64,000 nucleotides of DNA, from assembly GCA_020849535.1 (NCBI GenBank), contig JADLGB010000240.1, positions 1-64,000 on the forward strand, read 5' to 3'. This document shows, piece by piece, positions 20,859 through 27,132 of this stretch; the stretch's first letter is position 1; each line of letters begins with the position of its first letter. Below the pieces are notes generated by a model. That model searched no databases, was not told the DNA's origin, and saw only the letters and a program-made list of their open reading frames with translations. Source of the stretch: Candidatus Hydrogenedentota bacterium (GTDB lineage: Bacteria > Hydrogenedentota > Hydrogenedentia > Hydrogenedentales > SLHB01). The translations under genes were made by a program, and so were the position numbers.

Positions 20859-23048
20859 ATGTTCAACCCAGCTCAACGTCAAGAACTACGCCCACACTCT
20901 AATCCTGCCATTTGGGCCGTAATCTGCTTGCTGCTTGCAGCTGGCTGCTCAACCACGGCTGTTCACTATAGGCAATGCCCTCAAGTATCCGTCAGCAGCA
21001 ATGCCATCAAGCTGCATTTCCCGGGCGACCCTGCAGTGGAGGCTTCTGTAGCCATTGAAAACGGCGAAGTGCTGGGCCTTTCGCAAATCTTCGTTGATGG
21101 GTGCGAAGTCCTTGACTCCCCACATCCCGCGGTGCCTGTTGCGAGAGCGATCACCGGTGGCAGCATCGAACCCGTAAGGGACCTCGATGCCTATCTCGCC
21201 GAACGCCAGCGAGTGGGGGACCAGCACACGTTCCCATCGCGTGGCGCGCTGAGTACCACCGACATCCCGCTCCGGGGACGCTATGCCGGCTGGCGCCGGT
21301 GTCGCGGCGCGGTAGTGCTCGATGTCGCACTGCCCAGGGGTCGTGCCGAATGGTGGCTGAGACCGGCCTCCACCCGCGTGTACAACCAGACGTACAGCGG
21401 TGTGATCTGGCAACTTAGGCTTTACGATGTGGGCCGGGTATATGAAGTCGACGTGGAAGAGCCCGTGGTCTTCGCGGAGGGGGACTGGCGTTTCCAGCAA
21501 CGCGGGAGCCAGAGTGACGACAAGAATGAAGAGGAGTTCCAACTGAGCCTTCAGCCCGATCCGAAGCAGCCGTACTCAATATCGAAACGTAAGTATGGCG
21601 CGCGCCAACAACCTTTCTTCTTCCTTGGGGGTACGCGTGGCTCTACTCTGAGTTACTTCGACCGCCTCACCTGCGCCGATGTGGAGGAGAGTCAGAAGGA
21701 AGGCCGCATCGCCTTGCGCTCCACGATTCCGGTCCGGCCGGATGAGACAGGCAGTATCGCGACGCCTGCCAAATTATGGGTCTTTCGGCGTGCGGATCTC
21801 TCGGACAAATGGGCCGCCGTGAACGAATGGACCTGGGCTTATGATCGCGTTGTGGGCGACTTGCAGGCACAGGCAGGCGTGAAACCGGTCGACCCGCTGC
21901 CGACCCTCTTTCACCAGCAGTTCGATACGCCGGGTCTCGAGTTTGGCTTCACGCCCGCGCTCCGCAAGCAGATGCCCCCGCCCTCGCTTGAAGAATCCTG
22001 GTTGTACCGCTTCACAAACGAGGTCGTGCCAAAGGCCGCCTCCTGGGGTATTGGCGTGATTGAACTGCGGGCCGTGCTCGACACGGATATTGATCATGGT
22101 GAGGCAGAATATCCCGCAGGCAGTTTCGCCGCGGACAGCGTGTGCAGTCCATGGGGACTACGCATCAGCCCCAAGCTTGCGGGCGAAGAGGGTCTCGCCT
22201 ACTTGGTGGAACAGGCCCATGCGCGAGGCATTCAGATCGCGATATGGTCGGCCCCTGCCCACCAATCCGTGTGTTCCCCTGTGGTGCGTGCGCACCCGGA
22301 TTGGCTGATGTTCGACGCTTCCGGACGCGCCATTAACCGCGGCTACGTCACGCTGGTCGGCATGGACCTGGCTGCCGGCTTTCGCGAATTCCTCGAAGGC
22401 GCCTACCGCGACCTCCACACACGCACAGGTGTGGATGGCGTGTGGGCCGATTCCTATTGCGCGTTCGGCGCGGACCGCGATATGAGCGACGCCGTCCCCT
22501 ACCCGCAGCTCGACCAGGCGGTCATGCTGCAACGCGCTATGCAGCGCATGGGGTACACCTATCTGATGCGGGAAGACTGCGGCCCCATCGGTCTCTCCTC
22601 ACGCAGTTCCGGACTCGAGGGCGTGCTTGGGCACGAGTACCTCCGCTACTACTTTCTCTACAACCACCAGGACCCCACCAAGCGCTACGACCCCGAATCG
22701 TATTTCAGGTCGCTGGCATCAAAAGGCGTGATGGACATCCGTGTGCCAAGCGAGTTTGAAGCGCTACCCAACGAAGCGCGAGACATGATCGTCAGGACCA
22801 ATTTCGCGTACCGCGAAGTGCTCCCACTGATGAAACGCCGTATCGTCCTTGGTAACGGCAATACCTGGCAGGGAGTCGCCTGGGCCGACCAACGCGACCA
22901 CATGCGCGTCCTTTTCAGCTTCGATGCGTTTGACTGGCCAATCCCCAGCGGCGCGAGAGTCCGCGAACTTATGACCGGCGAGACCTTAACGATCCCCGGC
23001 AGCCACCTCCACGCCCAACCGTGGCGCGTCTACACAATCTCGCCATGA
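20859..23048 (+). CDS. Melibiase-like (GH36-type) secreted lipoprotein
   Basis: 729 residues. A signal peptide ends in the lipobox LLLAAGC, so lipidation is expected. The N-terminal half is a beta-sandwich. The barrel from about 390 follows the GH36/clan GH-D pattern: GIGVIELRAVLD, LVEQAHARGIQIAIWSAP, HPDWLMFDASGR, MDLAAGFREFLEGAYRDLHTRTGVDGVWADSY, where the Asp of WAD sits at the usual nucleophile position. GGGGGATC precedes the ATG. Specificity is unknown; alpha-galactosidase is only the nearest fold. It lies downstream of the regulator and may belong to the same regulon. Confidence 0.8.
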   Translation: MFNPAQRQELRPHSNPAIWAVICLLLAAGCSTTAVHYRQCPQVSVSSNAIKLHFPGDPAVEASVAIENGEVLGLSQIFVDGCEVLDSPHPAVPVARAITGGSIEPVRDLDAYLAERQRVGDQHTFPSRGALSTTDIPLRGRYAGWRRCRGAVVLDVALPRGRAEWWLRPASTRVYNQTYSGVIWQLRLYDVGRVYEVDVEEPVVFAEGDWRFQQRGSQSDDKNEEEFQLSLQPDPKQPYSISKRKYGARQQPFFFLGGTRGSTLSYFDRLTCADVEESQKEGRIALRSTIPVRPDETGSIATPAKLWVFRRADLSDKWAAVNEWTWAYDRVVGDLQAQAGVKPVDPLPTLFHQQFDTPGLEFGFTPALRKQMPPPSLEESWLYRFTNEVVPKAASWGIGVIELRAVLDTDIDHGEAEYPAGSFAADSVCSPWGLRISPKLAGEEGLAYLVEQAHARGIQIAIWSAPAHQSVCSPVVRAHPDWLMFDASGRAINRGYVTLVGMDLAAGFREFLEGAYRDLHTRTGVDGVWADSYCAFGADRDMSDAVPYPQLDQAVMLQRAMQRMGYTYLMREDCGPIGLSSRSSGLEGVLGHEYLRYYFLYNHQDPTKRYDPESYFRSLASKGVMDIRVPSEFEALPNEARDMIVRTNFAYREVLPLMKRRIVLGNGNTWQGVAWADQRDHMRVLFSFDAFDWPIPSGARVRELMTGETLTIPGSHLHAQPWRVYTISP

Positions 23049-23145: not shown

Positions 23146-23239
23146 GTTTAGCCCCAACGCCAAGCTTCAATCCCTCCGTGTCACGAATCGAAGCCACATC
23201 CGTGCAACAGGCCGTCCAGCATGCGACCATGGCCTCCAC

Positions 23240-24403
23240 TCACTCCACTGCGGGCTTTTCCTCAGCCACCCACTCGATTACGGGAGGCGGAGTGCGGAAG
23301 TCATCTTCCTTCAAGGATTGTTGCGTTTCTTCCACTTTCCGATTGAGCGCGTGTCGCTGGTCCTCCAATTCGCTGATGGTATTCTGCAGTTCAACGCGAT
23401 GGCCTAAGCGCGCCTTCAACTGCTCGTATTCCTTCCCGAGTACCTCGTGTCTTGCGCGCAATCCGGCGAGATTGACCTCGGTTTCCATGAGCATCTGCGC
23501 AAGATGGAGGGCCAGGTCCGTTTGCGCACGAGCGGGGAGCGTTGTGCTCTGACCTGCGAGAGTCTGCTTGATCTGTGCGATCCGGTTCTCCATTTCATTG
23601 AGGGTTTCTGCCGAAGATTCCCCAGCGTCCACCCGTTTCTTGAGTTCTGAAGCTTCTCTCTCAGCCAGCCGGAGCTTCTCCTCAATTGCCTTCTGTTCAT
23701 CTGTTAGCTCCCCAATTTCCAGAAGGGACTTCGTTGGGTGGTCCACAATTGCCTGGCGTCGAGCCTCCATCTCCGCAAGGTTCATCTCCAGCTCAAGCTT
23801 CGGACCTTCTTCTATTGCCGCAATATGGGATTGCAACGTTTCATCGGACGCTTCGAGTCTAGCGCGTTCCAGTTCTTCAGTTTTGCCGTCCATTTGCTCC
23901 TTTACCTCGGCCATGGACTGCTGGATTTCGCGGATTCTTAGCCCAATCTCTTGCTTTTCAGTTTGAAAGGCTGCATCATCTAGACCGTGCTGCCGGTAGA
24001 AGGCGCCAAGGAACAGGTCTACAGAGAGTCTTGAATAAGAGGACCGGATTCGGCCCGGTATTGCTGGTACATCCAACACATACTCCTTCCCATCATCCGA
24101 CACAATGGCGTTAACTGACAGTACAGTACGTACCCAATTAACGAGATCCATATAATTCTCGCCGCTTTTGCCCAGCGGCATCCCGTCAACCTCAGGAATC
24201 CTGTGCGGTGCGAGTGGTTTGCCCAACTCCTCATGCCACTTGTCGGCCCAGGGGCGATAGAGCGCGTAGGTGCGAGGATCGAAGTGAATTCGTGCGAGAA
24301 CTTCTGCTTGCTTAGCTGTTGCAGCCGCGTCCTCCGCGATGGCACACAAGGGCATGAGTGCCCCGATCAGAAGAAGCGCAGTGGTAGCTTTGACTCTAAT
24401 CAT
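23240..24403 (-). CDS. Secreted coiled-coil protein, third gene of the ECF sigma trio
   Basis: 387 residues. A signal peptide (MIRVKATTALLLIGALMPLCAIAE) is followed by a small globular part to about 140. About 230 residues of almost continuous heptad-rich helix come next (EIGLRIREIQQSMAEVKEQ, LRLAEREASELKKRVDAG, RARHEVLGKEYEQLKARLG). I recognise no enzyme family. The ATG overlaps the anti-sigma stop as ATGA, so the two are translationally coupled. A periplasmic rod or scaffold that interacts with the periplasmic part of the anti-sigma protein is a reasonable inference. Confidence 0.8.
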   Translation of the reverse strand: MIRVKATTALLLIGALMPLCAIAEDAAATAKQAEVLARIHFDPRTYALYRPWADKWHEELGKPLAPHRIPEVDGMPLGKSGENYMDLVNWVRTVLSVNAIVSDDGKEYVLDVPAIPGRIRSSYSRLSVDLFLGAFYRQHGLDDAAFQTEKQEIGLRIREIQQSMAEVKEQMDGKTEELERARLEASDETLQSHIAAIEEGPKLELEMNLAEMEARRQAIVDHPTKSLLEIGELTDEQKAIEEKLRLAEREASELKKRVDAGESSAETLNEMENRIAQIKQTLAGQSTTLPARAQTDLALHLAQMLMETEVNLAGLRARHEVLGKEYEQLKARLGHRVELQNTISELEDQRHALNRKVEETQQSLKEDDFRTPPPVIEWVAEEKPAVE

Positions 24404-25089
24404 GATTCCACCCTCCGGTTCTCTGACGCTTGTGTCAGCGCGCGGATTCTCTCTTTGGCACTTGCGGCACTCTTCGTGTTCGGGAAACGTGTGGTGATCT
24501 CACGATACCGGGACAACGCTATCTCGATGTCGCGGTTGTCCCGTTCGTAGTACTTGCCCGCTTCAAAGAGGATGGCCGCGGTTCCTTCCCGCTCGATTTC
24601 GCCCAGGCTCAATTCGATGCTCACGGGCTCGCGGGCATCGAAGCTGGCTTCAAGGTCAGCCACCAGACGTTCGAGATCCGCAATGCGGCCGTTCAACTCC
24701 GCCACGCGCGTCTCCATCTCGTACCCGCTCGCCGGGATCTGTGCAGGAGTCGAGACGCGCACGAGCCACAGGGCCATCGCTAACGCGCATGCTGCGCAAG
24801 CCGCCCCGGCCGAATAGACCACACGCCGATACGCGCGCTGCCGATACACGCGATGCTCTATCGCATCGACAGTGGGGGCTGCCGGACTGGGCGGTTCCAC
24901 CAAGCCGCCTTTCACGCATTCGAGGTCGGCGCGGTACGCATCCGCCAACGCGCGCGCATCGGGATGCTGGTCCAAGTAGCGATCCACCTCAGCCTGCCGC
25001 ACCGGGTCGAGTTCGTCATACTCGATCAGGGACTGCTCATCGATTTGTTCCGTTGGCGCTGGTTTCAAGGTTCGTATCCCTTCATCCAT
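24400..25089 (-). CDS. Membrane anti-sigma factor with coiled coil and TPR-like tail
   Basis: 229 residues. The N-terminal part (EYDELDPVRQAEVDRYLDQHPDARALADAY) resembles zinc-free anti-sigma domains. One transmembrane helix lies at about 90-112. A short coiled coil (VAELNGRIADLERLVADLEASFD) follows at about 125-150. The last 60 residues resemble a TPR/YbgF-type repeat (ILFEAGKYYERDNRDIEIALSRYREITTRFPNT). Its start lies inside the end of the sigma gene (25-base overlap), which is typical of sigma/anti-sigma pairs. The periplasmic coil and TPR-like tail could bind the coiled-coil protein encoded next. Confidence 0.82.
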   Translation of the reverse strand: MDEGIRTLKPAPTEQIDEQSLIEYDELDPVRQAEVDRYLDQHPDARALADAYRADLECVKGGLVEPPSPAAPTVDAIEHRVYRQRAYRRVVYSAGAACAACALAMALWLVRVSTPAQIPASGYEMETRVAELNGRIADLERLVADLEASFDAREPVSIELSLGEIEREGTAAILFEAGKYYERDNRDIEIALSRYREITTRFPNTKSAASAKERIRALTQASENRRVES

Positions 25090-25649
25090 TCACGAAGTTT
25101 CTTGCGGGCATGATATACGCGCGTACGAACGGTCACTTCAGGTATCCGCAACGTCTCGGCCACGTCCGCACAACTCATCTCCTCGAGGTACCGCAGCACG
25201 AAGACCAGCCTGAGCTTTCTCGGCAGCCGCTGTATGCAGGCCACGGCGCGCTCGTGGGCCTCGTCACGCACAGCGTGTTCGGTGTTGGGCGCAGGTTCAC
25301 TCATCGTGGCGAAAGGGTCGCGCACGAATGTCTTCAGGTTTCGCAGCCATCCTCGGCGGATGGAGGTGAAGTGGTTGAGGGCCACGCGCGTCAACCAGGT
25401 TGACTGGGCGGCGTCACCGCGAAACCGGCCGCGTGCCGCCCACGCCTTCGCGAGCACGTCTTGTACGGCGTCATCCAACTCATCTTCCGGCAGACCGAAG
25501 CGCCACGCGAGACGCCGAAGCCGCGGATACTCCCGCGCGATGAGGTCCTCCAACGTGTGGTCCGATACACTCGAGATTTCCTCACGCACGGGGCAGGGCT
25601 CGACACTTGCCACGCGCGGCGCGGTTGGAATCACGTCTCCACACGTCAT
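25065..25649 (-). CDS. ECF-type RNA polymerase sigma factor
   Basis: About 194 residues. Region 2 (LIAREYPRLRRLAWRFGLPEDELDDAVQDVLAKAW, STWLTRVALNHF) and region 4 (AVACIQRLPRKLRLVFVLRYLEEMSCADVAETLRIPEVTVRTRVYHARKKL) are both present. The frame opens at a GTG at 25679, but the ECF-type promoter just upstream would start transcription at about 25678. The ATG at 25649 is therefore the better start. It heads a three-gene operon with the anti-sigma and coiled-coil genes. Confidence 0.93.
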   Translation of the reverse strand: MTCGDVIPTAPRVASVEPCPVREEISSVSDHTLEDLIAREYPRLRRLAWRFGLPEDELDDAVQDVLAKAWAARGRFRGDAAQSTWLTRVALNHFTSIRRGWLRNLKTFVRDPFATMSEPAPNTEHAVRDEAHERAVACIQRLPRKLRLVFVLRYLEEMSCADVAETLRIPEVTVRTRVYHARKKLREWMKGYEP

Positions 25650-25684
25650 CGGTGTCCCACGCTCGAGTTTCGCTTCCACATAGA

Positions 25685-25712
25685 TTAGACTGAGGCGAGC
25701 GGGAAAGGTTCA
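25685..25712 (-). promoter_or_regulatory. Candidate ECF autoregulatory promoter
   Basis: On the minus strand TGAACC (25712-25707) and GTCTAA (25690-25685) are separated by 16 bp, the classical spacing and base pattern of ECF promoters (GAAC and TC cores). It lies directly upstream of the sigma gene, as expected for self-activation. Confidence 0.6.
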
Positions 25713-25822
25713 AAGCAAGTAGAAGTTATGCGGCGCAAACGAGTTAAACCGCGACATCAGCCAGACAATCGCTGCCGTTGGAATACGTGCGGGTGTGAAG
25801 GTTACGGCCAGGCCAACCGGTC

Positions 25823-26203
25823 CTATATCCCGTTCAAGTAGGTTGCCGCCGCGCCCAGGAACTCCCGCGCCCAAGCGACCACGAGGCTAGCCTGTTCCCC
25901 CGTTACCGATGTGCCGACACCATAATCACCCGCGTTCCGTAGGTCCTGAGCATCGAGCAGCCAGCGGTGGAACCGAGCATCAAGGTCTCCAGTCTTGGCA
26001 AATTCCCGGCCGTAGGCGGCCTGCACCGCCGCATGGCTTGAGAAGGACTGACCGCGCGACGCCAACAAAGCTCCAGCGACATAGAACATTGAGTAGTATG
26101 CGCGAGATGCGGCAAATGCCGCGTAGCCCTGCGCGAGCAACAGTTCAGCAGCGGCCAAGCTCTCTCGCGCTTTGTCGAGCTGAGCGTCGATATCGGCGTT
26201 CAC
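25823..26203 (-). CDS. HEPN-domain protein (UPF0332 type)
   Basis: 126 residues, all-helical. ESLAAAELLLAQGYAAFAASRAYYSMFYVAGALLASRG is the typical HEPN opening and DAQDLRNAGDYG the conserved second-half motif. In HEPN/MNT pairs this partner is usually the toxin, often an RNase. The start is a GTG overlapping the MNT stop by four bases (GTGA), so the two proteins are made together. Confidence 0.9.
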   Translation of the reverse strand: MNADIDAQLDKARESLAAAELLLAQGYAAFAASRAYYSMFYVAGALLASRGQSFSSHAAVQAAYGREFAKTGDLDARFHRWLLDAQDLRNAGDYGVGTSVTGEQASLVVAWAREFLGAAATYLNGI

Positions 26204-26523
26204 ACGGCAACCCCTTCCTTGCGGACATTCATCAGAAATGGCAACTGGCGCGATTCATAGTCCTCGCGCGTGACAAACGCCCGCGAAAAGACTACGCCAT
26301 GCTCAAGGCTCAGTTGTGCCGTTAGCGCCGAGGTCCGGGCAATCATCTCGCCGTAGTCGAAGGGGCGCCGCATCACGCATAGCAAATCGATATCGGAATC
26401 ATCTCGCTCTTCACCACGCGCGTGAGAGCCATAGAGGATTACGGCATCCAACGCCTCGCCCAGTTCTTCTACCAAGCCGGCGCGGTATGCAAGGAGAATC
26501 TCATTTCGCTGTGTCGATGTCAT
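26200..26523 (-). CDS. MNT-type nucleotidyltransferase
   Basis: 107 residues. GSHARG (about 32-37) followed by DDSDIDLL (about 41-48) is the nucleotidyltransferase metal-binding signature. In characterised HEPN/MNT systems this protein neutralises the HEPN toxin, in some cases by adenylylating it. GAGGAG lies upstream of the ATG. The pair has its own upstream gap and may be an independent unit. Confidence 0.92.
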   Translation of the reverse strand: MTSTQRNEILLAYRAGLVEELGEALDAVILYGSHARGEERDDSDIDLLCVMRRPFDYGEMIARTSALTAQLSLEHGVVFSRAFVTREDYESRQLPFLMNVRKEGVAV

Positions 26524-26728
26524 GGCGTCTCCTCGCTTTCAGTGTACCATCGATACCTTGAGGTTTCCATCGACGTAAAGGGAAACGCCGCCCCCGGCGG
26601 GTAGCATCGTTCTCCTCCTGACATCCTGCCGCATCGCGCAATCTTGACTGAGAGGGGTACTATTGCACGTCGAGGAGATTGGGATTCTGCCACCCGCATA
26701 ATGAATCATCCGCATCCTCGTCAGAAGT

Positions 26729-27061
26729 TCAGAAGTGGGTAGATACGACCAGCGGGATTTGTCCGGAAATCAGCAATGCCCAACAGACTGCAACGGCGTA
26801 TAGGTGGCGTCTGCGGGACCACTCGAAGTGGCCTTTCAGGACGGTCCTTGCGAGTTCCATGACGATGATGGCTGAGAGCAGCGAATGGACTATGAGGAAT
26901 GGTATTAACAGGGCCAGCGGAAGCCCGTGGATCACTGCCATGAGCGAGCGTCCACTCAGCTCAATATACGTCCAGAACAAGGCAAAGATGAGTACGTAGA
27001 TGAGACTCCCTTGAACGAGTCTCCGGTATCGTATGTCTCCGGTGAGTTCGTATGGCGGCAT
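26729..27061 (-). CDS. Small integral membrane protein, unknown function
   Basis: 110 residues with three hydrophobic helices (LIYVLIFALFWTYIELSG, LPLALLIPFLIVHSLLSAIIVMEL, LYAVAVCWALLISGQIPLVV). The ATG follows GTGGAG at about nine bases. I recognise no family. It lies downstream of amrS on the same strand with 71 bp between them, so it could be cotranscribed. Confidence 0.65.
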   Translation of the reverse strand: MPPYELTGDIRYRRLVQGSLIYVLIFALFWTYIELSGRSLMAVIHGLPLALLIPFLIVHSLLSAIIVMELARTVLKGHFEWSRRRHLYAVAVCWALLISGQIPLVVSTHF

Positions 27062-27132
27062 TGCACGTACTCCACTTCAGGTCGAAGCGCCCATGCGCAG
27101 CGTGCAATCTCGGTGCACCTACCTCAGCCCCC

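Follow-up and report, generated by a model that had tools for sequence, protein, structure and literature searches.

The window, a 64,000-nucleotide stretch of the 7.8 Mb genome of a Candidatus Hydrogenedentota bacterium, contains a three-gene operon that probably forms a self-contained, autoregulated ECF module controlling an exported, helical protein of the periplasm. On the minus strand, genes for an ECF sigma factor, a membrane anti-sigma-like protein and a coil protein with a signal peptide follow each other head to tail. The trio was found in the same gene order in 3 of the 68 genomes of the phylum: the genome of the window (G000), a sister species of the same genus (G002) and, in strongly diverged form, a member of another genus of the same family (G016). 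The completeness of these assemblies is limited (93.7%, 72% and 84%). Direct support for the module came from the gene order and overlaps, the conservation in three species, a single conserved promoter, the export signal and a domain layout derived from models and weak profiles.

The three genes and their products

All three overlapping genes described in an earlier note on this DNA are present at the indicated location. The sigma and anti-sigma genes overlap by 25 bp and the anti-sigma and coil genes by 4 bp (ATGA), and the differences by codon position indicated purifying selection on all three. The following features were distinguished:

25684-25713, minus strand: ECF-type promoter TTGAAC-N17-GTCTAAT (-35 at 25713-25708, -10 at 25690-25684), 34 nt upstream of the sigma ATG
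25065-25649, minus strand: ECF sigma factor, 194 aa, start MTCGDV (Pfam, PDB relatives, orthologues)
24400-25089, minus strand: membrane anti-sigma factor-like protein, 229 aa (weak HMM matches, layout, gene position, AF2 model)
24904-25044, minus strand: cytoplasmic anti-sigma domain-like region, residues 16-62, three predicted helices, no zinc motif
24754-24810, minus strand: single predicted transmembrane segment, about residues 94-112 (hydropathy maximum 1.9 at residue 94; model helix 74-112)
24634-24726, minus strand: predicted periplasmic coil, residues 122-152 (model; conserved RIADLER)
24406-24606, minus strand: TPR-like three-helix tail, residues 162-228 (pLDDT 75-93; fold and sequence matches)
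23240-24403, minus strand: exported coil protein, 387 aa (sequence, orthologues, codon positions)
24335-24403, minus strand: Sec signal peptide, predicted cleavage at about AIA/ED, no lipobox cysteine (sequence; A-x-A-like ends in the orthologues too)
23981-24334, minus strand: N-terminal alpha/beta domain, residues 24-141 (model; conservation)
23309-23977, minus strand: long helices, residues 143-221, 235-288 and 291-365, modelled as a hairpin (pTM 0.40, modest)
23738-23842, minus strand: most conserved block of the coil, residues 188-222, SDETLQ..IAAIEEGPKLELEMNLAE..ARR (77% identical to G002)
23243-23308, minus strand: conserved C-terminal tail RTPxPVIEWV..E (RLPKAPVVV in G016), predicted beta strand
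23162-27131, no strand assigned: block absent as one piece from a third member of the genus (G001), comprising the ECF operon, a HEPN/nucleotidyltransferase pair and a 110-aa ORF

The identification of the first product as a sigma factor was upheld by Pfam, with both domains of the region 2 and region 4 pair above their cut-offs: PF04542 (4.7e-11, 42.7 bits, cut-off 24) and PF08281 (5e-15, 55.3 bits, cut-off 25.7). As in ECF (group 4) sigma factors, the protein contains regions 2 and 4 and is too short for regions 1.1 and 3, and the nearest PDB relatives are SigH, RpoE, SigW and CnrH. The conserved start of the gene was placed at the ATG at 25649, since the orthologues align from there; the mechanically chosen GTG at 25679 is too early.

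For the second protein, the anti-sigma HMM NF052375 matched the three orthologues at 6.7e-5, 2.2e-6 and 4.5e-6 and zf-HC2 matched at 0.0019, all below the curated cut-offs; an Hx3Cx2C zinc motif was not found in it. The AF2 model (pLDDT 66.6, modest) has short helices at residues 18-22, 29-41 and 43-60. As in class I ASD anti-sigma factors, a hydrophobic segment follows the N-terminal domain and the gene lies next to that of the sigma, and the same holds for the orthologues. The tail is modelled as one three-helix unit, which matches single TPR-like stretches of NlpI (VIA-align Z 9.8 over 64 residues, rmsd 3.2), BamD and CpoB. Among PDB sequences it matches the CpoB TPR domain best (E 0.0054); of the HMMs, BamD matched at 1.7e-5, below its cut-off, and TPR_6 at 0.14. 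A layout like that of CpoB, with a periplasmic coil followed by one TPR-like unit, is supported, because the tail in the model resembles single TPR units and CpoB is the best match by sequence. Repeated TPRs are not supported. The layout of a membrane protein with a coil and a TPR-like tail, as first read from the sequence, was thus recovered in the model and the hydropathy profile; its anti-sigma character is suggested by HMM matches below the cut-offs.

In the coil gene, the differences to G002 at codon positions 1, 2 and 3 were 0.45, 0.38 and 0.66; third positions exceed first and second, which indicates purifying selection. The protein contains no hydrophobic membrane segment beyond the signal peptide. 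Its model, built from three sequences (pLDDT 69.0, pTM 0.40), starts with a strand (residues 35-41), helices, a strand (108-113) and a helix (120-138), and continues with long helices at 143-221 and 291-365, shorter ones between them and a final strand at 375-380. Identity to G002 is uneven, with 69% in residues 24-62, 77% in residues 188-222, 55% in the tail and 24% in the other parts of the coil. The earlier note had described a signal-peptide protein almost entirely of heptads. The signal peptide was found, but the helices span about residues 143-365 of 387, residues 24-141 are predicted to be alpha/beta, and a regular 3.5-residue periodicity was statistically significant in only a few stretches. 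Nor does the model favour the rod shape proposed there: given its topology and the restriction of heptad periodicity to some stretches, a folded-back hairpin on an alpha/beta base is, with modest confidence, the better guess.

By sequence comparison, the coil protein belongs to no known family. No Pfam match was obtained at E<=5 in any of the three orthologues, and searches of Pfam, NCBIfam and the PDB sequences returned coiled-coil cross-matches and no relative; matches to PADLOC LmuB (8.5e-5) and to SMC/Rad50 were dismissed as such cross-matches. PDB fold searches with the model gave generic long-helix matches only, with Z values in the range that is usual for models of helical proteins, and no conclusion is drawn from these matches.

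Related circuits and the possible role of the third protein

The general plan of the operon has precedents. CnrYXH of Cupriavidus metallidurans likewise combines an ECF sigma factor, a membrane anti-sigma factor and a periplasmic, mostly helical third protein (PMC7689651, PMC4598750). However, CnrX is membrane-anchored and binds metal, whereas the coil protein has a cleavable signal peptide, and CnrH also drives the efflux pump cnrCBA (PMC7689651, PMC4598750). A CnrX-like metal sensor was rejected, as the coil protein has no membrane anchor and none of its histidines is shared by all three orthologues (His40 and His67 are kept in G002 and absent in G016). In cirY-cirZ-spy of Phocaeicola vulgatus, genes for a sigma factor, an anti-sigma factor and an exported helical protein are co-transcribed as here and the sigma chiefly induces its own operon; after deletion of cirZ, induction by CirY is strongest for CirY itself, for spy and for two genes downstream (PMC13114119). 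The third protein of that operon is the Spy chaperone, whereas the coil protein is longer, has an alpha/beta base and does not match LTXXQ/Spy. Kinship with Spy/CpxP (LTXXQ, PF07813) was rejected, with no Pfam match in the three orthologues and 2.4% in hhalign against a local LTXXQ-like set. Control of RpoE by RseA and RseB also pairs a membrane anti-sigma factor with a soluble periplasmic partner (PMC4598750); the coil protein gave no match to RseB in Pfam/NCBIfam.

Within the phylum, 40 further ECF loci were read. Three of these are sigma/anti-sigma/exported helical protein trios with 4-bp overlaps (L088:3136-3837, on G000:C286; L113:3120-3806; L121:3140-3850), the first of them in the same genome as the coil operon. 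They share the gene order, the overlaps and an exported helical third protein with the coil operon. Their third proteins are about 230 aa long; two have weak LTXXQ or Metal_resist matches and the other is 41-42% identical to them. Profile comparison of these third proteins with the coil gave nothing (2.4%), and the profile match of their anti-sigma factors to the second protein covers the N-terminal half only. Because CnrYXH, cirYZ-spy and these LTXXQ-like trios share one plan, the circuit appears to be a lineage-specific form of a known type of envelope-stress circuit. The earlier remark that no family with such a third component had been described therefore applies to the protein itself, which has no known family or solved relative, but not to the plan of the circuit.

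The topology of the coil model, with its alpha/beta base, long helical hairpin and return strand, also suggested a relationship with the Wzz/Wzc polysaccharide co-polymerases. Foldseek gave a weak match to Wzc (E 0.21), Wzc was not among the top VIA-align matches listed, and the G016 orthologue matches TIGR03007 at 8.4e-8 in its coil part only. In contrast to Wzz/Wzc, where two membrane segments enclose the periplasmic hairpin, the coil protein has no flanking membrane segments and no Wzz/GNVR domain. By sequence this relationship was not supported, as profile comparison with the co-polymerases of its own genome was negative (12% over 27 columns; 0.3%).

Rather than being the output of the circuit, the coil protein could possibly be its sensor or co-inhibitor. 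It would then bind the coil or TPR-like tail of the anti-sigma, with its conserved C-terminal tail or residues 188-222 as possible contact sites, and the sigma would be freed when the coil protein is lost, titrated or deformed, as with CnrX or RseB. The earlier note had raised a sensor of this kind, a periplasmic rod interacting with the anti-sigma tail. This tentative reading is favoured by the finding that in all three genomes the coil gene strictly accompanies this anti-sigma and is apparently co-transcribed with it, by the TPR-like tail, since such folds often bind peptides or helices, and by the conserved blocks within the coil protein. Against it, the identity of the coil falls faster than that of the anti-sigma, down to 22% in G016, and its C-terminal tail is predicted to be a strand of the coil protein itself. 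Moreover, a third protein encoded in the operon can be dispensable: VreA, such a third component, proved unnecessary for signalling (PMC7035377), which calls for caution in assuming that the coil protein binds the anti-sigma tail.

In the preferred reading, an autoregulated module with the exported protein as its product, it is plausible, if on the unlikely side, that the coil protein also binds this tail. Rather doubtful is the fuller proposal that it is a new kind of ECF co-regulator: its folded-back helices would dock onto the TPR-like tail of the anti-sigma from the same operon and signal the envelope's condition, in a closed loop that serves this one operon. Such a loop would so far be known only from a small branch of the Hydrogenedentota. 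If the coil does bind the tail, this would be a new mode of sensing for a very large class of bacterial signalling systems.

Promoter, targets and proposed mechanism

The motif TGAACC-N16-GTCTAA, which had been noticed before the sigma gene, is present exactly at 25712-25685. The position and sequence of the promoter are kept in G000, G002 and G016, while the surrounding upstream DNA is poorly conserved; by this conservation the promoter is considered real. An AAC-containing -35 precedes the sigma in all three genomes, a feature which, as far as sequence can tell, fits autoregulated ECF promoters. With a variable spacer allowed, there is a single strict match in each of G000, G002 and G016, always before the sigma, and none in G001, which lacks the operon.

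As a control the reversed pattern was used, the strict form of which was found once in the four genomes. The earlier note had named an equal frequency of the promoter pattern at random positions as a ground for refutation, and had proposed mapping other sites. The strict form was not found at random positions, and mapping yielded near matches at the control rate only: sites with up to 2 mismatches numbered 4 against 7 for the control in G000, 3 against 0 in G002, 2 against 1 in G016 and 1 against 7 in G001. In these four genomes near matches do not exceed the chance level, which leaves no basis for claiming a further target, in a search limited by the incomplete assemblies and by a pattern beyond which the promoters of other targets may diverge. 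Because the strict form occurs once per genome and near matches occur at the chance rate, the operon is the only target found and appears, by its sequence pattern, to switch on itself only.

We infer a mechanism, including the inhibition of the sigma, its release, the signal, the function of the coil protein and the feedback, which for inhibition, release on a periplasmic event and feedback draws on established knowledge of ECF systems. The membrane anti-sigma-like protein would hold the sigma by its N-terminal helical domain, and a periplasmic event acting on the coil and TPR-like tail would free it. The freed sigma would transcribe its own operon from the conserved promoter, and little or nothing else, raising the levels of sigma and, as negative feedback, of anti-sigma, and producing the exported helical protein. 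The latter is the most likely output, because no other gene was found with this promoter; it would be the main product, probably chaperone- or scaffold-like in the periplasm, and may in turn act on the tail of the anti-sigma.

It is unlikely that the sigma instead serves a wider regulon of diverged promoters, of which the operon would be the autoregulatory part, as in a stress regulon of the RpoE type, which in E. coli is large. Sites with 2 mismatches do lie before another ECF operon in G000 (G000:C10) and before carB in G000 and G001. However, the total of 2-mismatch sites is no higher than that of the reversed control, and the carB site is present in G001, which has no such sigma. These hints (carB sites on G000:C3 and G001:C66; ECF operon on G000:C10) were rejected as being at the control rate. 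The carB site itself, a conserved TTGAACGCG-N14-GTCTAAT-like sequence about 150 bp before the gene (G000:C3:25847-25876; G001:C66:551-580), is probably another promoter or due to chance.

Distribution, loss and neighbouring genes

The orthologues of the sigma, second and coil proteins are 65%, 45% and 41% identical in G002 and 58%, 34% and 22% identical in G016. In G002 the trio lies beside the radical-SAM gene known from the window; the neighbours in G016 are different. The conserved neighbourhood that the earlier note had proposed seeking in relatives was thus found for the trio in two further genomes, so that neither of the two refuting conditions named there held. In no other of the 68 genomes of the phylum was the coil gene recognisable; matches in G054 and G055 were due to chance, in unrelated reading frames. 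Among 386 genomes, reaching outside the phylum, orthologues of the sigma and anti-sigma were confined to the three trios. When 84,980 species genomes were scanned with two short patterns, coil relatives turned up in the sister species only; with such patterns distant relatives may have been overlooked.

In G001 the block 23162-27131 is cleanly gone, and a 729-aa gene lies at the same site directly beside the radical-SAM gene, which is 96% identical to that of the window. Loss in G001 is the simpler reading, because the more distant G002 keeps the operon beside the same radical-SAM gene. This clean absence shows that the module is dispensable.

That an ordinary ECF pair is merely co-transcribed with an unrelated passenger gene is improbable: ECF operons of the phylum differ widely in their third genes and the module was lost without a trace in G001, but the coil gene lies directly behind the same pair across two genera, in differing chromosomal surroundings, and was found nowhere else in the 68 genomes of the phylum. 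On the preferred reading, the operon is a compact ECF circuit, apparently with a single target, whose exported protein belongs to no known family and whose anti-sigma would, like CpoB, pair a coil with a TPR-like unit in the periplasm. On a conservative reading, it illustrates how the third component of ECF operons varies in a phylum that lacks experimental systems.

Between the operon and the radical-SAM gene, the window encodes a HEPN protein and a minimal nucleotidyltransferase (25823-26523; PF05168, PF01909 and PADLOC PDC-S09, 8e-30), a common toxin-antitoxin arrangement, and this pair has gone together with the ECF operon in G001. Convergent with the operon lies the gene for a 729-aa exported, glycosidase-like protein (20859-23048), for which the matches to Melibiase, GHL6 and GHL15 were all sub-threshold. 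In G016 an exported polysaccharide deacetylase-like gene, recognised by eye, is divergent from the ECF operon (L053:2822-3691, on G016:C82), a faint hint towards envelope polysaccharide. No RNA families were matched in the region. In-frame TGA codons in distant radical-SAM homologues were considered as possible selenocysteine codons: in L160 and L162 the TGA, after ...WN at the end of the protein, looks like an ordinary stop.

A second type of ECF trio was observed across the phylum. Its third proteins, 45-84% identical and without any Pfam family, are conserved, exported and about 158-208 aa long, and follow a sigma factor and a membrane anti-sigma-like protein of about 140-150 aa. These trios are located at L058:387-863 (G000:C10), L098:1747-2229, L112:1719-2345, L119:1741-2217 and L158.
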